From the NCBI RefSeq assembly GCF_000001735.4, contig NC_003071.7, forward strand, positions 17,521,443 to 17,585,442: a stretch of DNA of 64,000 bases. Reading direction: 5' to 3'. A program made the position numbers and the translations under genes. This DNA comes from Arabidopsis thaliana. Its lineage: Eukaryota > Streptophyta > Magnoliopsida > Brassicales > Brassicaceae. Positions within the stretch are counted from its first letter, which is position 1; each line of letters opens with the position of its first letter. This document shows positions 2,052 through 58,780 of the stretch, in pieces. Under the pieces are notes generated by a model. That model was not told where the DNA came from. It searched no databases and saw only the letters and a program-made list of their open reading frames with translations.

Positions 2052-3250
2052 TTATTCTTCTTTCCAAATCCGTCCAGTGACTCGCAACTTGAGCTCTTCT
2101 TTGTCACTGCCAGAGAAGTACAAAGCCAAGTTTCTAGGGATTATGAGTCCGTCTTGACTATCTCGGACTTTCCTGTGACTGTCTCTGATGCTTCTTGGGA
2201 TCCCTTGCCATGTTAGTTTACGACTGTGAGCTCCAACTTCCAAGCTGTAACTGAACTTCTTAGCCTCGTTCTCGTCTCCCATAAACCTTAGAAACGCCAT
2301 GTACACTGGTGCCATCCCGAGCTGAAACGCCTCAAAGTGTAAGCAGAACTGTCTTCCGAAACAGTTGAAGACCTAAACAGCATCAGATGAAAACAGGATT
2401 CAATTCAAGTAGTGAAATTGTCAGTTCCTTTTCTTATACATGGAATAAAATGCCTTAGAGAAAAATACATATGTGAAAGGTAACATCAAATACATATTAA
2501 CAATGACTATTTAGCTATAAGGGAATGCATAACTATCAAAATTACCGTAAGCATCCATGTAGCATTCTCGACCTCATGCGGATTTGACTTCACATAACGA
2601 TGGTTGAAAGTGCACCCATCATGCATGTCAACTTTATGATCATCTTTGAGATGGTCAACAAGCGTTGGAATATCACCCGTCACTGAACACTCAGAACCAG
2701 CATAAGGACAGCTGTAGGATCGAAACCTGCAATGCTGCTCGTGCTTGAGCTTGCTGTAGTATGGGAAAATGTCCTGACACCCTAAATTTTGGTACCGGCA
2801 TGGAACTTCCAATGATTCCGCAACCTTCTCAAGAGCCAAGCATCTTATGTTACCAAGCTCATAGCGGCATGTAGGGCATGTGTTCTGCACTCTCAGTTTG
2901 CAGCTTGAACACAATGTGTGGCCGTTCGGGCACTATGGGAAATTAACAAACATAGATGTCAACATGAAATAAACGAAGAACGAAACTCAAGAATGAACCA
3001 TATTTTACAGATCAGGACGTAAGAAAGAAAAGCAACAAACCTGATGAATTGGAGGATACATTAAATTTGTACAAACCGGACATTCAAGGAGCTCATAAAC
3101 ACCATTGCTCGAATGGAATTTTCCAATGGAGCCACTACCTGATTTTGTTGGTTTGCTATTAGCCTCAACCTTTGCCATCTTAACCTCATAATCTACGCCT
3201 GTCGAGTTAGATTCTAGAGCTTCTTTCAATGCACTGCCACCAGGAGCCAT
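2052..3250 (-). CDS. SINAT1: SINAT1, SINA-type RING E3 ubiquitin ligase
   Basis: Three exons, 3250-3041, 2932-2546 and 2372-2052, give 305 residues, the length I recall for SINAT1 (At2g41980). The RING finger is split by intron 1: CPVC at the end of exon 1 (about residue 57), then CPNGH, LCSSC and CPTC at the start of exon 2. The SINA-type zinc fingers follow (CRYQNLGC, later HEQHC, then CPYAGSEC), and exon 3 carries the C-terminal TRAF-like fold. SIAH/SINA proteins dimerise and transfer ubiquitin from an E2 to bound substrates; plant SINATs are linked to autophagy and endosomal sorting proteins. The ATG at 3250 (MAPGGSALKE) lies inside a longer open frame that has no earlier ATG. A long leader intron probably runs from about 4448 to 3376; its distal exon resembles the PLD beta 1 leader. 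Confidence 0.93.
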
Positions 3251-16880: not shown

Positions 16881-17260
16881 ACACGAGAAGAAGAATCAAT
16901 GAAGAAATTGGAAAAGAAGAGAAACGCGGATTTCTATTAATCAAAGAAACGCGGATTTACCAAGATAGGAAATTAAACAAGGAGGTAGGACAAGTTATTG
17001 ACGTTTGTTCCAGATTCACCAAGTTCGTTTCCTTTTTTGCTCATTTTTTCCCTTATTCAACCTTCAAATATTTATTCTTACTAGATTTCAGATAGTATTT
17101 TGATTAACAAACTTTTTAGATCAGATTTTTCAATCTATTTATAAAAAAATTTACGTTTTGCTTCTATCTTCAATTGGCTATCTAGCTCCTGCATGAACAG
17201 AGGGACACAGGTTGGTTACAATTTACAAACCCCGCGTCGATAAAAATGTAAAATAGAATT

Positions 17261-17342
17261 CGTCGCCTGAGAGATTCGAACTCTCGCGGGGAAACCCCAT
17301 TTACTTAGCAGGCAAACGCCTTAACCACTCGGCCAAAGCGAC
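17261..17342 (-). tRNA. tRNA-Ser (anticodon GCU)
   Basis: Read on the minus strand, an 82-nt cloverleaf starts GTCGCTTTGGCCGAGTGG (A box) and ends AGGCGAC plus a discriminator G. The acceptor stem pairs GTCGCTT with AGGCGAC. The anticodon stem TTTGC/GTAAA encloses loop CTGCTAA, so the anticodon is GCT, reading AGC and AGU. A long variable arm (GGGGTTTCCCC) is the serine class mark. The B box GAGTTCGAATCTC is intact. T runs at about 17253-17240 can end Pol III transcription. No intron and no encoded CCA. Confidence 0.96.
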
Positions 17343-17626
17343 GTTTTGTCCAGTCAACAACAAAAACTTTTATATTCTATCACAAGTCAAAACTCTGCCG
17401 CAACAAGTCAACAACTGCCAACAACCGAATTCATTCACCAGATCAAAAGAATTGAAAAAACCATATATCCTATTGATGTATTTATTTATTAGTCTTTTAG
17501 CATAAAAACTGAAACAACAAAAATCCAAAATCCCATATAAAAAACAAACTGAAAAAACCAATAAAATCACTGCTTTCTACTACAGATTATTACTCTAGCT
17601 TCCTCTTTCTTCTCCTCCATTCTCTT

Positions 17627-23621: not shown

Positions 23622-24317
23622 GTCTGTTGATCAGCATTTGCATGTATATGGATATGTGTATGTTTATGTACATGATGATAATGGGCATAGCTCTATGTAT
23701 TGGGTGTGTGAACATGTCTATGTGTAGATTGATCGAGGACGTAATTGGCCTTTGCTCTGCATCTTATATATATTGGTGGATGTTTCCTAGTTTCATTTTC
23801 GTTTATACCAAGGCTTTAATAGTTGAAACTTAGATGAATAAATGGACTAAAGAATATGATTGAATAAGATATAACTAAAATTGTATTCTATCTAGCTATT
23901 ACTTCTGTAAGTTAGTTACTACTTACTGTAAAAGAATAGTAGTAATTCATTGATGTTTCAACTTTTTTAGCAAAATCATGTGAACTGTTTTTCTCCACGA
24001 TGCTCACTGCAACTGGTGCAAAATAAATGAAATCAAACGATAGGACTACTTTGTTTCAGTTTCCAACCATAATTTTTTACGGTATTTGGAACACTAGTTA
24101 CACCCTAGTTACCTCGGTTTAAAACACTATTTCTACTACTACCAGTTTTAATTATATGGATTTTCTTTATTAAAAAGAAACAGTTTTAATTAATTGTATG
24201 GTTTTTATATATCACATTTTCAAAGACCAGTTTTAATTGTGTGGATTTTAATATATATTCATGTAACTTTCTTTTTTTAAAACTCTATGTTCTCTATCAA
24301 ATCTGGATTACTATTAA
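23622..24317. other. 3-prime flank of the WRC gene
   Basis: AT-rich sequence with the probable 3-prime UTR of the WRC gene to about 23860. Nothing else is recognised before the TIR element. Confidence 0.5.
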
Positions 24318-25358
24318 GACCCTGTTTGTTTCTCCATCCAGATGGATCATCTAGATGGAGATGAAAAATGATGTTTGTTTTTGACAATTTAACATACCAT
24401 TTGGATGAATCACTAAGATGATCCATCTGAATGACTTTGTAAATTTAGGCAAATTTTTAAAACTCATTTGGATGGACTTGGTTGGACTTGGTTGGACCAT
24501 TTGGATGGAGATGATTTAGTCAAAAAGAATAAATGACAAATATAACCTTTGTAATAATACTAATTTTCTATAAAGTTTTTTTTTTTTTAATTACATATTG
24601 CACCCAAAAAAATTAAAAATTAGGAAATCACGGACTATTATTTTACGTCAAAATTGTATTCATTTTCCCGTCAAAACCGCAAAATCATATTTTTCTGTTA
24701 AAACTTTAAAATAATGTTTTTCCGCCAAAACCGTAAAACCATGTTTTCCCGCCAAAACTTCAAAATCATGTTTTCTGGCCAAAACTTCAAAATCATGTTT
24801 TCCCGCCAAAACCGTAAAATCATGTTTTCCCGCCAAAACTTCAAAATCATGTTTTCTCGCCAAAACTTCAAAATCATGTTTTCCCGCCAAAACCGTAAAA
24901 TATTTTTTCCCGCCAAAACCGTAAATTCATGTTTTCCCGCCAAAACTTCAAAATCATGTTTTTCCGCCAAAACCGTAATATCATATTTCCCGCCAAAACC
25001 GTAAAATATTTTTTCCCGCCAAAACTTCAAAATCATGTTTTCCCGCCAAAACCGTAATATCATGTTTTCCTGGCAAAACCGCAAAATCATGTTTTCCCGC
25101 CAAAGCCATAATATCATGTTTTCCCGCTAAAACCGTAAAATATTTTTTTCACCAAAACCGTAAAATTATTTTTACCTACTAAAATGTGGACGAACTACAA
25201 AATAATCAAACAAATAAAAATCCATTTAAATGCATCATTTAGATTAAATCTCAAATGGTTAAACAAATACTAGAAACATCATTCAAATGCATCATTTAAA
25301 TGAATCATGTAAATGGATCATTTGAATGAAAATGCTAAATGATGAAACAAACAGAGCC
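24318..25358. mobile_element. Harbinger-like non-autonomous TIR element (candidate)
   Basis: The ends are GACCCTGTTTGTTTC at 24318 and, reversed, GGCTCTGTTTGTTTC at 25358, 13 of 15 matching. The element is flanked on both sides by TAA (24315-24317 and 25359-25361), the 3-bp target duplication typical of PIF/Harbinger. Subterminal DNA repeats GATCCATTTGAATG-like words on both arms, and ATGATGTTTNT then ACCATTT are shared between the arms in inverted order. The 1.04-kb element has no transposase; about half of it is a 27-bp minisatellite. hAT-type MITEs can have similar ends but leave 8-bp duplications, which I do not see. Confidence 0.75.
24661..25185. repeat. 27-bp minisatellite carrying E2F-type sites
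   Basis: About twenty units of 26-27 bp with core TTTTCCCGCCAAAAC. Units alternate between two tails, CCGTAAAAT and TTCAAAATC, hinting at a 54-bp higher-order unit. I count eleven exact TTTCCCGC, ten of them extended to TTTCCCGCCAAA. Since 27 is a multiple of three, long open frames run through it on both strands; they are repeat artefacts, not genes. Confidence 0.95.
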
Positions 25359-26751
25359 TAAGTCGAGAAATTGTTTTTCACTTACGGACGATATAACCAA
25401 AACTATCATGACCTTCAATAATGTAGAATATACTGTTACGTACTTGGTCTTGGTGTCAGGTCTTGTGCAACATCTGATCTTGGTCGAGATAGGAGATTTG
25501 TTCCCTTGTTCTGTGTACTTTGTGGAAGGTTTTTATATGTATGACAAAAAAAAGAAAACAAAACAAAACAAAACTACGTACCCTTACGAAAGGAGGAAAC
25601 CATGCTGAACCAATAATAAAAAAATAAAATTAAAAAAAAAATGAAATCCCTAAAGCTTCTCATTAGAGTTTGAAGTCATCTACCTCCATATATAACATCA
25701 TCCTATACCAAGAACGATGTTAGTATTTAATACGACTTTCTATGGAATGGTTTGGAGCTTATATTATATGTCTCGAATTTCAATAAATAAATAGAAAGAT
25801 ATACAATAAGACGGCTAGAAAGTGGGTATAACTTTAATTTGGTGATGATGATGGCTTGTTTATAAAATATATGGTGGGAAACAAACTAGTTTGATTAGGT
25901 AAGGCTGTCGTATTATCGATTGTAGACTATTTAGCTGAAACCACCAATATTATTAACGTAAAGTTTGTTAGTTAAGGTAACTGTCCCCAATAATGTTTAC
26001 TAGCTAACCTAATGATTCCCTATACTTTTTGTTTGATTTATTTGGTTTTGTAATTTTTGACAAACCAGCAAGGTATTAACCATTTTACGATCATGGACAT
26101 GGTATAATATATCTACACAAGCCAATAGTAACGTTGAATACTTGAATTCCATATTTTCCACACTAGTCTTGTTTGGTGCAACATTAATGTTATTTTGTTT
26201 GGACTGCAACTTGCATGTTGGATGAGTATAATGTCCTTTGTTCAAATTTGTTTTTGTGATTATTTACAATATCAAATAATCTTGGATGTTGGCCTATTGG
26301 GTTGTAAAACAAAAAGTTTGAAGAAAACAGAAGAATCCTACTAGATAAAGCAATTTATTTGTTTTTGTAAATGAAAAAAGGCTCACAAAGAAAAATGATG
26401 TTAGTGAATCCATCAAATTTATGTCGTTACGATTTGATTAAATAATTGTTAGGCATCGAATGATTGCACCAAATAATTTGACATTACGAAATTAACAAAA
26501 GAGTTTATTGAGATACGACGACTTCGTTGGTCAAACCTCAAGTAGTTGACTTTCTTAAGTTCAACGCTGTTTCCTTCAACTATTATGTAATCATCATCAT
26601 CCAAAAACTACTAATTTCCCATTAAGAAAACCAAATTTGTAACCAATCAAAACAACTCAGACTTGGAACAATTCAAAGTCAGACAAACCTTATATGCAAT
26701 GTGATCAAAACTCCAAACACACAAGATTGCTAAATCAAAGAGACAAACTCA
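25359..26751. other. Intergenic between the TIR element and the C1-domain gene
   Basis: AT-rich. No ORF with an ATG and recognisable family is seen. A-rich tracts lie at 25545-25640. Confidence 0.5.
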
Positions 26752-35301: not shown

Positions 35302-36927
35302 ATGAAGCCTATCGTGTGTGACAAGGGACATGGAATGGTGCAGGTACGTTAAAAAGAAACACACTTTTTTTTTGGTTAATCGTTAAGGCTTCGATTGTTT
35401 TACTAAACACTATTTATGCGTTTATATTAAAATAAACCATATTTTGACCTATACTCTGGAGTATTTCTCGTGAAACGTTTTGTTAAGTGCCAATTAATTG
35501 GTGAAACATTTTGAAGGCGGGATTTGCTGGAGACGAAGCACCAAAGGTTGTGTTTCCATGTGTCGTGGGTCGTCCAAGAGATGGATTGAATCCGAACGAA
35601 TCTTATGTGGGAGAAGAAGGTCATGCCAACAGAGATATTCTCACACTTAAAGACCCAATGGAGCATGGTATCGTTAACAATTGGGATGACATGGAGAAGA
35701 TTTGGCACTATACTTTCTACAACGAGCTACGTGTGGATCCTGAAGAACACCCTGTACTTCTCACTGAAGCTCCTTATAACCCTAAAGCCAATCGTGAGAA
35801 AATGACTCAGATCATGTTTGAGAGCTTTGATGTTCCTGCTATGTACGTCTCCATGCAATCTGTTCTTTATCTCTATTCCAGTGGTCGTACCACAGGTAAG
35901 CAACCAAAATCCAAAATGTCATAAATTAAGAGAAATTAATATTTTGTTAGTTTATAAGCTTGGAGTCTCATAATTTAGCAGTGGATCTTGTTAGAACATC
36001 AAATGCAAACAGCGAATGTTGTTATATTCTAAAATGTGAATTTTTGCTGTTGAACTTTTTTGGTCACTATAATACACGCAAATGCATGAATTGCGTATTT
36101 GCGTGTGAAACAATCCATGACTTAATTACTATGTTAAGTTTCTACGTGTTTAGGTGTTGTGTTGGATTTAGGAGAGAGGGTGAGCCACACAGTTCCAGTA
36201 TACGAAGGTTACGCACTCCCACACGGTATACTTCGTCTAGACCTTGGAGGCCGTGACCTAACTGACTACCTCATAGAAATCATGACCGAACGTGGCTACA
36301 CATACACCACATCCGCCGAGCGGGAAATAGTCCGAGACATCAAAGAGAAGCTTTGTTACGTAGCACTCGACTACGAGCAAGAAATGGAGAAGACAACAAA
36401 GGGTTGGACAATCGATAAAACCTACGTGCTTCCCGATGGTCAAGAGATCACGATAGAAGCCGAGAGATTCATGTGCCCCGAGGTTCTTTTCCAGCCGTCT
36501 GTGATCGGAAAGGAATCTTCTGGTATTCACGAGGCGACTCGCAATTCCATCTTGAAGTGTCCTGTTGATACGAGGAGGGATATGTATGGTAACATTTTGA
36601 TGACTGGTGGCACGACGATGTTACATGGGATTAAAGAAAGAATGACCAAAGAGCTAAATGCACTTGTACCGTCGAGTATGAAAGTTAAAGTTGTAGTTCC
36701 TCCGGAAAGTGAGTGTAGTGTTTGGATTGGAGGCTCCATTTTGGCTTCTCTAAGCACCTTTCACCAGGTAAATAAGATGATATAAAATGTGGTTTTAAAG
36801 TTAATTAGTGTAAGTTTTTTGGGGTTGTTATAATCTAAATTTTTTGATGTCCATATTGCAGATGTGGATAACTAAGGATGAATATGAAGAACATGGAGCG
36901 GCGATTGTTCACAGAAAATGCGTCTAA
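35302..36927 (+). CDS. ACT9: Actin-9, divergent actin
   Basis: Four exons, 35302-35343, 35517-35895, 36154-36767 and 36862-36927; 366 residues without stops, about ten fewer than typical plant actin. Body motifs are kept ([55 protein letters not shown], end HRKCV). Both nucleotide phosphate loops are changed: DNGTGMVK of the neighbour is DKGHGMVQ here, and DSGDGVSH is DLGERVSH. The codon aligned with the neighbouring actin start is ATT (35284-35286), so translation can begin only six codons later at 35302. ACT9 (At2g42090) has been listed as a probable pseudogene in the Arabidopsis actin family. The intact frame with altered ATP contacts suggests relaxed or changed constraint. Confidence 0.9.
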
Positions 36928-38768: not shown

Positions 38769-40503
38769 ATGTCGGATCTAGGTGACGAATCCGTGGCTAT
38801 CGTGTGTGACAATGGAACTGGAATGGTCAAGGTAAGGAGAAACTAAAAACACTCTTTATTAATCTGTAATGCTTTTTTTTTGTTTGATGAAAAATCTATA
38901 ATGCTTCCTTTGTTTCAAACACTATTTACGCATTTGCTTTGCGTTTACATTTAAATTTTTTCAAAAAGTTAAGAAAATAAAATATTTTGCAAAGTACTGA
39001 AAACGCCAAAAAAAAAAAACTTTTTCTATTTCCCGTTTTCATTTACGAATACCAAAAGATTTTTTCCTTTATGTACTTCCGGTTGGGCAATAATGAGTTA
39101 GAAAAATGTATACTAAATATAAACGTAAGCAACCAATCAATGTATATTGTAGACCTAAATCCTAATGATTGGTAAAACATTTTGAAGGCGGGATTCGCTG
39201 GAGACGATGCACCAAGAGCTGTGTTTCCAAGCGTTGTGGGTCGTCCACGACACAGGGGAGTGATGGTAGGAATGGATGAGAAGGATACCTTTGTGGGAGA
39301 CGAAGCTCAAGCCAGGAGAGGTATTCTTTCACTTAAATACCCAATCGAACACGGTGTTGTTAGCAATTGGGATGACATGGAGAAGATTTGGCACCATACT
39401 TTTTACAATGAGCTGCGTTTGGAACCTGAAGAACACCCTATTCTTCTCACTGAAGCTCCTCTTAACCCAAAGGTCAATCGTGAAAAGATGACTCAGATCA
39501 TGTTTGAGTCATTTGCTTTTCCTAGTATGTATATTGGTATTCAGGCCGTTCTCTCTCTCTATTCCAGTGGTCGTACCACAGGTATGTAATATCGTTCACA
39601 TGCAAAATCTTTAAATATATATATTTTTTTATATAAATGTGATTTTTATGAAAATCTTGAAATGTGATTTTTTTTTTTGGTAATAACAATGGTCCTAAAT
39701 CTGTTAAATTTCTGCGTGGTTAGGTATTGTGTTGGATTCAGGAGATGGTGTGAGCCACACAGTTCCAATCTACGAAGGTTATGCACTCCCGCATGCGATC
39801 TTGCGTCTAGATCTAGCAGGCCGTGACCTAACCGAGTATCTGACGAAAATCATGATGGAACGTGGCTACACATACACCACATCCGCCGAGCGTGAGATAG
39901 TCCGAGACATCAAAGAGAAGCTTTGTTACATAGCTGTTGACTACGAGCAAGAAATGGAGAAGGCTACAACGAGCTCGGCAATCGATAGAACCTACGAGCT
40001 TCCGGATGGTCAAGTGATCACGATAGGAGCTGAGAGATTCAGGTGCCCTGAGGTTCTTTTCCAGACGTCTTTGATTGGCATGGAAACTTCTGGTATTCAT
40101 GAGACGACTTACAATTCGATCATGAAGTGTGATGTGGATATAAGGAAGGATTTGTATGGAAACATTGTGTTGAGTGGTGGCACGACGATGTTCCCGGGGA
40201 TTGCAGATAGGATGAACAAAGAGATCAATGCGCTTGCACCGCCTAGTATGAAGATAAAAGTTGTGGCTCCTCCCGAAAGGAAATATAGTGTTTGGGTTGG
40301 AGGCTCCATTCTGGCTTCTCTAAGCAGCTTTGCACCGGTACATATGATAATATTATTAACTGTTTTATAAATTTAACGTGCGTATAGATATCTCTTTTTG
40401 GTGTGTTGTAATGTAAAGTTGCGATGTCTATATGCAGATGTGGATTACTAAAGCTGAGTATGACGAACAGGGAGGGGCGATTGTTCACAGGAAATGCTTT
40501 TAA
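38769..40503 (+). CDS. Actin (At2g42100-type)
   Basis: Four exons, 38769-38831, 39188-39581, 39724-40337 and 40438-40503; 378 residues. Intron positions are the same as in ACT9. Both phosphate loops are canonical ([13 protein letters not shown] and DSGDGVSH), as are [13 protein letters not shown] and [13 protein letters not shown]. The protein should bind ATP. Differences from ordinary vegetative or reproductive plant actins include the N-terminus [16 protein letters not shown], and FAPMW at the last exon junction where actins usually read FQQMW. I recall At2g42100 as an actin-like gene of unclear expression. The leader carries an intron ending at 38766. Confidence 0.88.
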
Positions 40504-40791: not shown

Positions 40792-41290
40792 TTAAACGAC
40801 GTCGTTGGTGAGACGCCTGTGTCTGTTATAATGCTTCTCGATGAAAACTCTTGAAGCTCCTTCCATTGTTTTACGCCATGTCTGACCAATTAGAGCAGAG
40901 TATGATTTTAAAAATAAAGAAATTTACAAATCAATTAATGGAAATTGGATTCAGTAATTATTATACCTTGCCGATGGTTCTGACGAGAGACTTGTTCCTG
41001 AGATGTGATTTTCCAGAAGCAAGCTGCCGGATAAACAGAGATCTCCGTTTACTCGCCGGGGCAAGCAAGAGCCGTTTCCTCTCCACTAAGCCACTAGTGT
41101 TACTTTCGATGTCAACGCCCTTCTCTCGAGAAGAACTCTTAGCTGATTTCTTCCGGCGTTTCGTTGACTTTGACGACTCGTCGACGTCGTCAGGATCGGC
41201 GAACTTACGGAGCAATTCGTCGGAGGATTTCTTGTTCACGTGAGTGATTTTCGTCGGAATAGTAGTCTCTGTGATAACAACAAGATCCAT
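40792..41290 (-). CDS. Small basic protein of unknown function (At2g42110-type)
   Basis: Two exons, 41290-40967 and 40881-40792, give 137 residues. It starts MDLVVITETTIPTK, then has a Ser/Lys/Arg-rich middle (STKRRKKSAKSSSREKG), a likely nuclear localisation signal, and a conserved-looking end in the second exon (TWRKTMEGASRVFIEKHYNR then HRRL). I recognise no domain. An exact E2F site lies 119 bp before the ATG, so S-phase or proliferation-linked expression is a testable guess. It is convergent with the actin upstream and shares its far side with the 3-prime end of POLD2. Confidence 0.78.
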
Positions 41291-41408
41291 ATTCTCGGTA
41301 ATGTAAGAAAGACAAGTAGTGAGTGAGAAATTGAGAGAAAGAGAGGATTAAAGTGTTAAGTGTAGAAGATGAAACTGTTTTGCGTTATAAAGGAAAGGTT
41401 AGGGAAAT

Positions 41409-41416
41409 GCGGGAAA
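41409..41416 (-). promoter_or_regulatory. E2F site upstream of the small basic protein
   Basis: GCGGGAAA on the plus strand, that is TTTCCCGC reading toward the gene, fits the E2F consensus TTTSSCGC and sits 119 bp before the ATG at 41290. Confidence 0.55.
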
Positions 41417-56781: not shown

Positions 56782-58780
56782 ATGTCGGAAGTAGAGGGCG
56801 AAAACCGGGCTATCGTGTGTGACAATGGAACTGGAATGATCAAGGTAAGGAGAAAATAAGAACACTCTCTATTATTAATTTGTGATGCGTCGTTTGTTTT
56901 CCAAACACAATTTACGCATTTGTATTGCGTTTACATTTAAAAATATCATAATTTTGAAATATAATTATAACAAAGTCAAAATGTCAACAAAGAAACTTTC
57001 TATTTTCAATTTTCATTTAACAATACAATTTTTTTTTTTTCTAGTGAGCTTCTTCTATGTTTGAGTATTGATTCGGAAAAATATGCAAAATGTAAAAGTA
57101 AACAACCAATTAATGCACATTATAAAACAACGTGGCAGATCTAATGATTGGTAAAACATATTGAAGGCAGGATATGCTGGAGAAGATGCACCAAGTGTTG
57201 TGTTCCAAGCACTGTGGGTCGTCCACCACATACGGGAGGGATGGTAGGAATGAATGAGAACGATTTATTTGTGGGAGACGACGCTGAAGCCAGGAGCGGT
57301 ATACTTACACTTGACTACCCAATGGAGCACGGTGTTGTTAGCAATTGGGATGACATGGAGAAGATTTGGTACCATACGTTTTACAGTGAGCTACGTGTGG
57401 CTCCTGAAGAACACCCTGTGCTTCTCACTGAAGCTCCTCTTAACCCGAAAGCCGATCGTGAGAAGATGACTCAGATCATGTTTGAGACATTTGCTGTTCC
57501 TAGTATGTATATTGGTATGCAGGCCGCTCTCTCCCTCCATGCCAGTGGTCGTACCACAGGTAAAGTAACTGCAACTCAAATTTCACAATTCAAATTTTTA
57601 GTTTGTAAGCTAGAAATTTTGTGGTTTTTTTTGCTTGCATGGTAGTACCAACTACAACGTCGGTAGAGAGGCTTTACTACAGTAGATATTCGAAGGCAGC
57701 AATTTAAAGTTTTTACAAGCTTTTAAAAAACATTACTTGCAGCGTAGTCAAAAATGTAGCTGGATTTTGCTGGCAATATTAGTTTTTACGTTTTGATGTT
57801 TTAAAAATGAACCTACGACTTTAAAACATTTGAAGCAATTTGTTTTGGTTAATATACACGATAAATACCAAACGCAATCGGAATGCAAATTTATTTGGTC
57901 GATTTTGGCGTTTGTGTTTGCACTTAACAAAAATATTTTTTGGAAAACCTTGAAATGTGATTTTTTTGTTTTGTTTGAAACAATCAATAATGGGTTCCCT
58001 TTATTTGTGTTTAGGTACTGTGTTGGATTCAGGAGATGGTGTGAGCTACATAGTTCCAATCTACGAAGGTTCAGCACTCCCACATGCAATCTTGCGGCTA
58101 GATTTAGCAGGCCGTCACCTAACCAACTACCTCATGAAAATCATGATGGAACGTGGCTACACATCCGCCGAGCGTGAGGTAGTCCGAGACATCAAAGAAC
58201 AATTTGGTTACATAGCTCTTGACTACGAGCAAGAAATGGAGAAGGCTACAAAGAGTTCGGCAATCGATAGAACCTACGAGCTTCCAGATGGTCAAGTGAT
58301 CACGATAGGAGCTGAGAGATTCAGGTGCCCTGAGGTTCTTTTCCAGCCGTCTTTGATTGGAATGGAAACTTCTGGTATTCATGAGAAGACTTACAATTCA
58401 ATCATGAAGTGTGATGATGATATAAGGAAGGATTTGTATGGAAACATTGTGTTGAGTGGTGGGACGACGATGTTCCGAGGGATTGAAGAGAGGATGACCA
58501 AAGAGATCAATGCGCTTGCAGCCGCTAATATGAGGATTAAAATTGTTGCTCCCCCGGAAAGGAAATATAGTGTTTGGATTGGAGGCTCCATTTTGGCTTC
58601 TCTAAGCACATATGAACAGGTAAATAAGATAATACTAATTGTATTATTAATTTAACGTGCGTATCTCTTTTGGGATGTTGTAATGTCAAGTTGTTGTGAT
58701 GTATATATATGCAGATGTGGATTACTAAAGCTGAGTATGAAGAAAATGGACCGGCCATTGTTCACACGAAATGCTTTTGA
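56782..58780 (+). pseudogene. Actin (At2g42170-type), frameshifted; truncated frame from 57241
   Basis: Same four-exon plan as its sisters: 56782-56844, 57167-57559, 58015-58619, 58715-58780. Exon 1 starts normally ([20 protein letters not shown]), but exon 2 lacks one T near 57202 (GTGTTCCAAG against GTGTTTCCAAG), which puts a stop about 16 codons later. The next usable ATG, 57241 (MVGMNEND), opens a clean 329-residue frame to 58780 that lacks the first phosphate loop and about 45 residues. Exon 3 also has a 9-bp in-frame loss (GYTSAERE against [11 protein letters not shown]). The rest is close to the 39-kb actin, including its intron sequence. It cannot make a full actin monomer; whether the short protein is made is unknown. 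Confidence 0.82.

Follow-up and report, generated by a model that had tools for sequence, protein, structure and literature searches.

The stretch of DNA analysed in this work (64,000 nucleotides, C2:17521443-17585442 of the 119.66-Mb, 7-contig genome of Arabidopsis thaliana; referred to here as the window) contains 15 exact TTTCCCGC sequences, whereas only 0.72 are expected (100 shuffles), and 11 of them are present between positions 24745 and 25127, all on the plus strand. This raises the question of whether such an array of E2F-type sites serves the locus in which it is found, or whether it is a characteristic of the transposable element that carries it.

The array was recognized by Tandem Repeats Finder as a repeat of period 27 with 19.1 copies (24663-25173; an alternative 81-bp reading was also given for the same array), and by a wrap-around alignment, in which every position carried equal weight, as consecutive units of TTTTCCCGCCAAAACCGTAAAATCATG (Table 1). 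The units follow each other mostly in steps of 27 bp, and of 26 bp in some cases, and for 10 of the 11 TTTCCCGC sites the extended form is TTTCCCGCCAAA. The original prediction, which described a tandem array of 11 exact and 10 extended sites fitting the E2F consensus and containing decayed CTGGCC and TCTCGC units, is borne out on each of these points, the two decayed units being located at 24768 and 24849. A frame of 142 codons (24698-25126) runs through the array on the minus strand, since 27-bp units, being a whole number of codons, stay in frame; it results from the repeat and does not point to a gene.

That the array lies within an element bounded by terminal inverted repeats (TIRs) was likewise correctly predicted. 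This element is short, non-coding and present in multiple copies, its sole long frame being the repeat itself, as is the case for MITEs. A target-site duplication of the 3-bp TWA type (TAA/TAA) and ends that are shared with three elements coding for a PF13359 domain indicate that it is of the PIF/Harbinger type. The genes in its vicinity code for a C2-domain protein, a WRC protein, a C1-domain protein and actin, which fits a position on chromosome 2 near At2g42040-At2g42060. The element starts about 0.7 kb after the end of the WRC ORF (23621), and the frame for the C1-domain protein starts at 26734, about 1.4 kb beyond the element. Elsewhere in the window, a single TTTCCCGC at 41409-41416 (minus strand) resembles an ordinary promoter-type E2F site; an ORF with no Pfam match is present on the same strand (40961-41347), and its first ATG lies about 120 bp downstream of the site. 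The window also contains a tRNA-Ser (GCT) gene (17260-17343, minus strand) and, judging from ORF translations, three copies of actin-like genes in a 23-kb region of the plus strand (35505-36785, 39176-40370 and 57148-58655), of which the 39176 exon was confirmed by the Pfam Actin profile.

Table 1. Coordinates of the element, its parts and the transposase-bearing elements with the same ends (positions without a contig name refer to the window).
Feature	Location	Length	Strand	Basis
Non-autonomous PIF/Harbinger-type MITE	24318..25358	1,041 bp		Ends GACCCTGTTTGTTT / AAACAAACAGAGCC, TAA flanks, at least 40 left-arm places
Left TAA target-site duplication	24315..24317			Flank sequence
Left arm with TIR	24318..24640		+	First ~92 bp alone match transposase-bearing elements
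27-bp minisatellite, 20.1 units, 11 TTTCCCGC, 10 TTTCCCGCCAAA	24641..25184		+	Tandem Repeats Finder, wrap-around alignment, motif counts
Right arm with TIR and short subterminal repeats	25185..25358		+	Arm comparisons, repeat finding
Right TAA target-site duplication	25359..25361			Flank sequence
PIF/Harbinger transposase element	C4:11834128-11838648	4.5 kb		TAA/TAA, same TIRs
PIF/Harbinger transposase element	C1:22693955-22699336	5.4 kb		TTA/TTA, same TIRs
PIF/Harbinger transposase element	C5:12540559-12544395	3.8 kb		TTA/TTA, same TIRs

The array had been treated as something special to this locus, which is not borne out: the elements of a multi-copy MITE family usually have such an array as their interior. 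Searches of the genome with the whole element gave at least 60 match rows (some copies yielding more than one), those with the left arm at least 41 rows at 40 or more places, and those with the right arm at least 38 rows, five of which are inner palindrome matches; all of these counts are lower bounds because the searches score best candidates only. We examined 32 distinct copies, 26 of which were picked for their resemblance to the complete element with its array and six for that to its left arm; loci overlapping others (L038, L041-L043) and left-arm loci repeating places already included were left out. An array could be aligned in all 32 copies, with 5.8 to 52.1 units (median 19.2), the weakest (L055) having 8.7 units with 22% divergence and one TTTCCCGC. 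An array specific to this locus was thus rejected, since the dispersed copies carry it. The right-arm search led to five further places, of which L094, L096 and L097 contain an array, whereas L095 and L086 do not, the latter being a transposase-bearing element. The array-less copies that the original prediction proposed to look for are represented by a lone right arm (L095 and L098, for which 5.7 kb of sequence revealed no left end), which is one array-less fragment of the family.

Identical 3-bp flanks were observed in 10 of the 27 copies that have both end motifs, compared with 2.8 expected from mismatched pairing; in eight of these ten they are TAA, TTA or TAT, the other two being TAG and TCA. 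Identical 8-bp flanks were found in none of the 27. The nearest copy (C5:2071539) is identical to the element in 975 of 1027 aligned columns (89% by BLAST), and the two sequences differ by two 27-bp gaps, both within the array, which indicates that the length of the array changes by whole units. The family may correspond to SIMPLEGUY1.

The DDE_Tnp_4 profile (PF13359) matched 63 places in the genome, and among the 13 that were inspected are the three larger elements sharing the TIRs of the MITE (Table 1). Twelve of the inspected loci are L074-L085, of which L076 and L077 turned out to be such partners. The three elements resemble the MITE in their TIRs, in a 3-bp duplication of TAA or TTA and in their subterminal sequences: the right arm is 74-77% similar over most of its length and the left arm 76-77%, in its first 88-92 bp only. 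They differ in being 3.8-5.4 kb long and DDE_Tnp_4-coding, and in that all three contain no TTTSSCGC on either strand. The array of E2F sites is therefore cargo of the non-autonomous MITE lineage, and it is not needed by the transposase source. At two further transposase loci, both without the MITE arms, one TTTCCCGC (L079) and two TTTCCCGCCAAA (L080, about 1.2 kb or more from the transposase match) were present. A different short repeat, which is ATCATTTGGATGAA-like and was chosen by eye, occurs four and three times in the two arms of the MITE; in the C4 element there are three and five copies in the outer 400 bp at either end and one in the middle 3,721 bp. It would be a better candidate than the E2F array for recognition by the transposase.

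Within the 32 copies, 226 exact TTTCCCGC remain in about 630 units. The commonest change is C-to-T in both core and linker, and G-to-A at G. Consensus C/G was retained at 3032 of 3737 positions in the core (0.811) and at 1988 of 2485 in the linker (0.800; paired test p=0.22), and 151 of 648 units have a T at position 5, which breaks the core. The core C/G decaying about as fast as that of the linker favours hitchhiking, and on this ground the idea that the E2F core as a whole is under strong purifying selection was rejected. The evidence is mixed, however, as CpG was retained better in the core (1070/1265) than in the linker (960/1254; p=2.5e-5, core higher in 25 of 32 copies), and A/T better at the core edges (median 0.979) than in the linker (0.939; p=2e-8, 31 of 32 copies). 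Both excesses may be due in part to amplified linker subtypes and to alignment slack in T/A runs; some past constraint, of a mild kind, on the core is therefore possible. The suggestion that the array is a passive hitchhiker thus agrees with the decay of core C/G, but not with the somewhat better retention of core CpG and A/T edges.

Searches for similar arrays elsewhere, as had also been proposed, revealed groups well beyond this locus. TTTCCCGCCAAA is present 1,561 times in the genome compared with three times for the reversed control, and 187 of these (12%) are in the 32 examined copies, so that the E2F motif has been multiplied within transposons. For all TTTSSCGCSAAA the count is 1,812 versus 64 for the control (palindromes counted twice), and nearly the whole excess is therefore due to TTTCCCGCCAAA alone. 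A total of 514 pairs of TTTCCCGCCAAA are 20-50 bp apart, whereas the control gave none; the first 100 pairs, all on chromosome 1, include 93 spaced 26-29 bp, in 30 groups. Places were taken from the first 100 for each pattern, covering C1-C3 for one pattern and C1 for the others.

Based upon their linkers, these arrays fall into classes, of which A is that of the element itself (27 bp). Class B has a 28-bp period, and its TTTTCCCGCCAAAAACGTAAA occurs 384 times exactly compared with none for the control; class C has 26-27 bp (L089, L090). The linkers of classes A and B show a likeness that was reached by 55 of 5000 shuffles, while the likeness of A to C (1836/5000) and of B to C (1057/5000) was not notable. 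Since classes B to D were found via a search for the core, their identical core is partly built in. One class B element (L088) has TAGGGGT-like ends and 8-bp flanks with 7 of the 8 bases in common, which indicates that it is hAT-type. L092 and L093 are likewise hAT-type, with TAGTGATGTTAA ends and perfect 8-bp duplications (ATCAGATA and CATATAGT); these assignments are based on the ends and the length of the duplication and not on a transposase. The consensus unit of L092 and L093, made by alignment to that of the element, is the same at 25 of 27 positions, and the arrays are 75-79% similar by BLAST, whereas no match was found between their arms. A shared unit within unrelated arms means that the unit either moved between superfamilies or arose twice. 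The hAT-type elements L087/L088 and L092/L093 thus resemble the MITE in having TTTTCCCGCCAAAA arrays with a 27- or 28-bp period, and differ from it in their 8-bp duplications, their TAGGGGT or TAGTGATGTTAA ends and their arms. A palindromic site, TTTGGCGCCAAA, was noted in some other elements (L091, C1:8238300-8240300), and its recurrence in 32-bp steps at C1:6237541-6237616 hints that there is another type of E2F-site array. A scan of viral contigs gave 13 stretches with a single match each and no array.

In light of these results, it is very improbable that the array serves the host at this one locus, be it in gene regulation, in replication timing or as a chromatin element. The position of 11 intact consensus sites between the WRC and C1-domain ORFs is suggestive of such a role, but the array belongs to a dispersed family as a whole and has a C/G core that decays like the linker, and the replication-timing or chromatin function raised in the original prediction gained no support from the tests made. 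Tandem motifs in transposons are often bound by element-encoded proteins, and the C4 element codes for a Myb/SANT-like domain (PF12776) next to a partial DDE domain; however, that the array binds the element's own transposase or a Myb-like partner instead of E2F is extremely improbable and largely refuted. An array of this kind was rejected because all three transposase-bearing partners are without the motif, and the short repeat that the C4 source has at its ends and the MITE in its arms also argues against it.

It is unlikely, to a lesser degree, that the array has been kept because recruitment of E2F/RBR aids the spread of the MITE, for example through transposition tied to S phase. Arrays with 26-29-bp steps in two element types with unrelated arms would agree with this, as would the better retained core CpG and A/T edges, and same-period arrays in unrelated elements hint at more than chance hitchhiking. 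On the other hand, the overall retention of C/G is not higher in the core than in the linker, core-breaking variants are common, the transposase-bearing partners manage without the array and the core shared with arrays elsewhere is in part a product of the search.

We therefore regard the element as very probably an old member of a family of non-autonomous PIF/Harbinger-type MITEs, in which E2F-type sites repeated as a 27-bp minisatellite make up the interior. The array has spread across the genome together with the MITE, its length shifts in whole 27-bp steps and its units bear many C-to-T and G-to-A changes. Where chromatin is accessible, intact units would be expected to bind E2F/DP and, via E2F, RBR; the host would be affected through a minor contribution to the dilution of E2F across the genome, with occasional cis-regulation by copies near promoters. 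The copy described here probably has no locus-specific function and is decaying as silenced transposon DNA does. Its likeliest role, as judged from sequence comparisons, is to offer E2F/RBR a weak platform for docking, one that transposition has spread.

MITEs of Brassicaceae that carry E2F sites are reportedly the subject of Henaff et al. 2014, Plant J 77:852, and the kind of element, an E2F-site-amplifying MITE, is already known. In the available parts of published accounts, E2F motifs have been amplified in Brassicaceae by hAT, PIF/Harbinger and MULE MITEs and by Helitrons, copies are polymorphic among A. thaliana ecotypes, and the amplified motifs are able to bind E2Fa, with binding in vivo reported (PMC12595863); the placing of the array with this amplification in the original prediction was right. 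The sponge idea is also in print, dilution having been proposed for the class and its many copies far from genes (PMC12595863, as available). Capture of the motif by MITEs is dated early in Brassicaceae (PMC13317346), an E2F-like site upstream of AtDRTS3 is within a transposon-like element (PMC5464667), and transposons, MITEs especially, are bound by RBR (PMC7404004), as far as the available text of these papers goes. The element resembles the Brassicaceae E2F MITEs, A. thaliana included, in that the motif is within PIF/Harbinger and hAT MITEs (PMC12595863, PMC13317346, PMC8725346; available parts). In contrast, neither 27-bp tandem arrays nor transposase-bearing partners that are free of the array are mentioned in the available portions of the review accounts, and the same holds for a single unit common to two superfamilies. 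A literature search for an E2F minisatellite in an Arabidopsis transposable element found no paper, which does not show absence in print; the array-free partners and the near-identical 27-bp unit in PIF/Harbinger-type and hAT-type elements may thus be published.

With 1,561 exact 12-mers in a 120-Mb genome, these elements provide a clean case of transposons multiplying one transcription-factor site. There is a small chance that they contain a mobile E2F/RBR docking module, a near-fixed 26-29-bp minisatellite that is absent from transposase sources, shared by PIF/Harbinger-type and hAT-type non-autonomous elements, and kept as S-phase recruitment of E2F/RBR aids their spread. If this were true, host cell-cycle factors would be helpers of parasitic MITEs, the presence of the same kind of array in unrelated MITEs would be explained, and a direct test would be at hand of whether E2F dilution or E2F-aided transposition has shaped Brassicaceae genomes.
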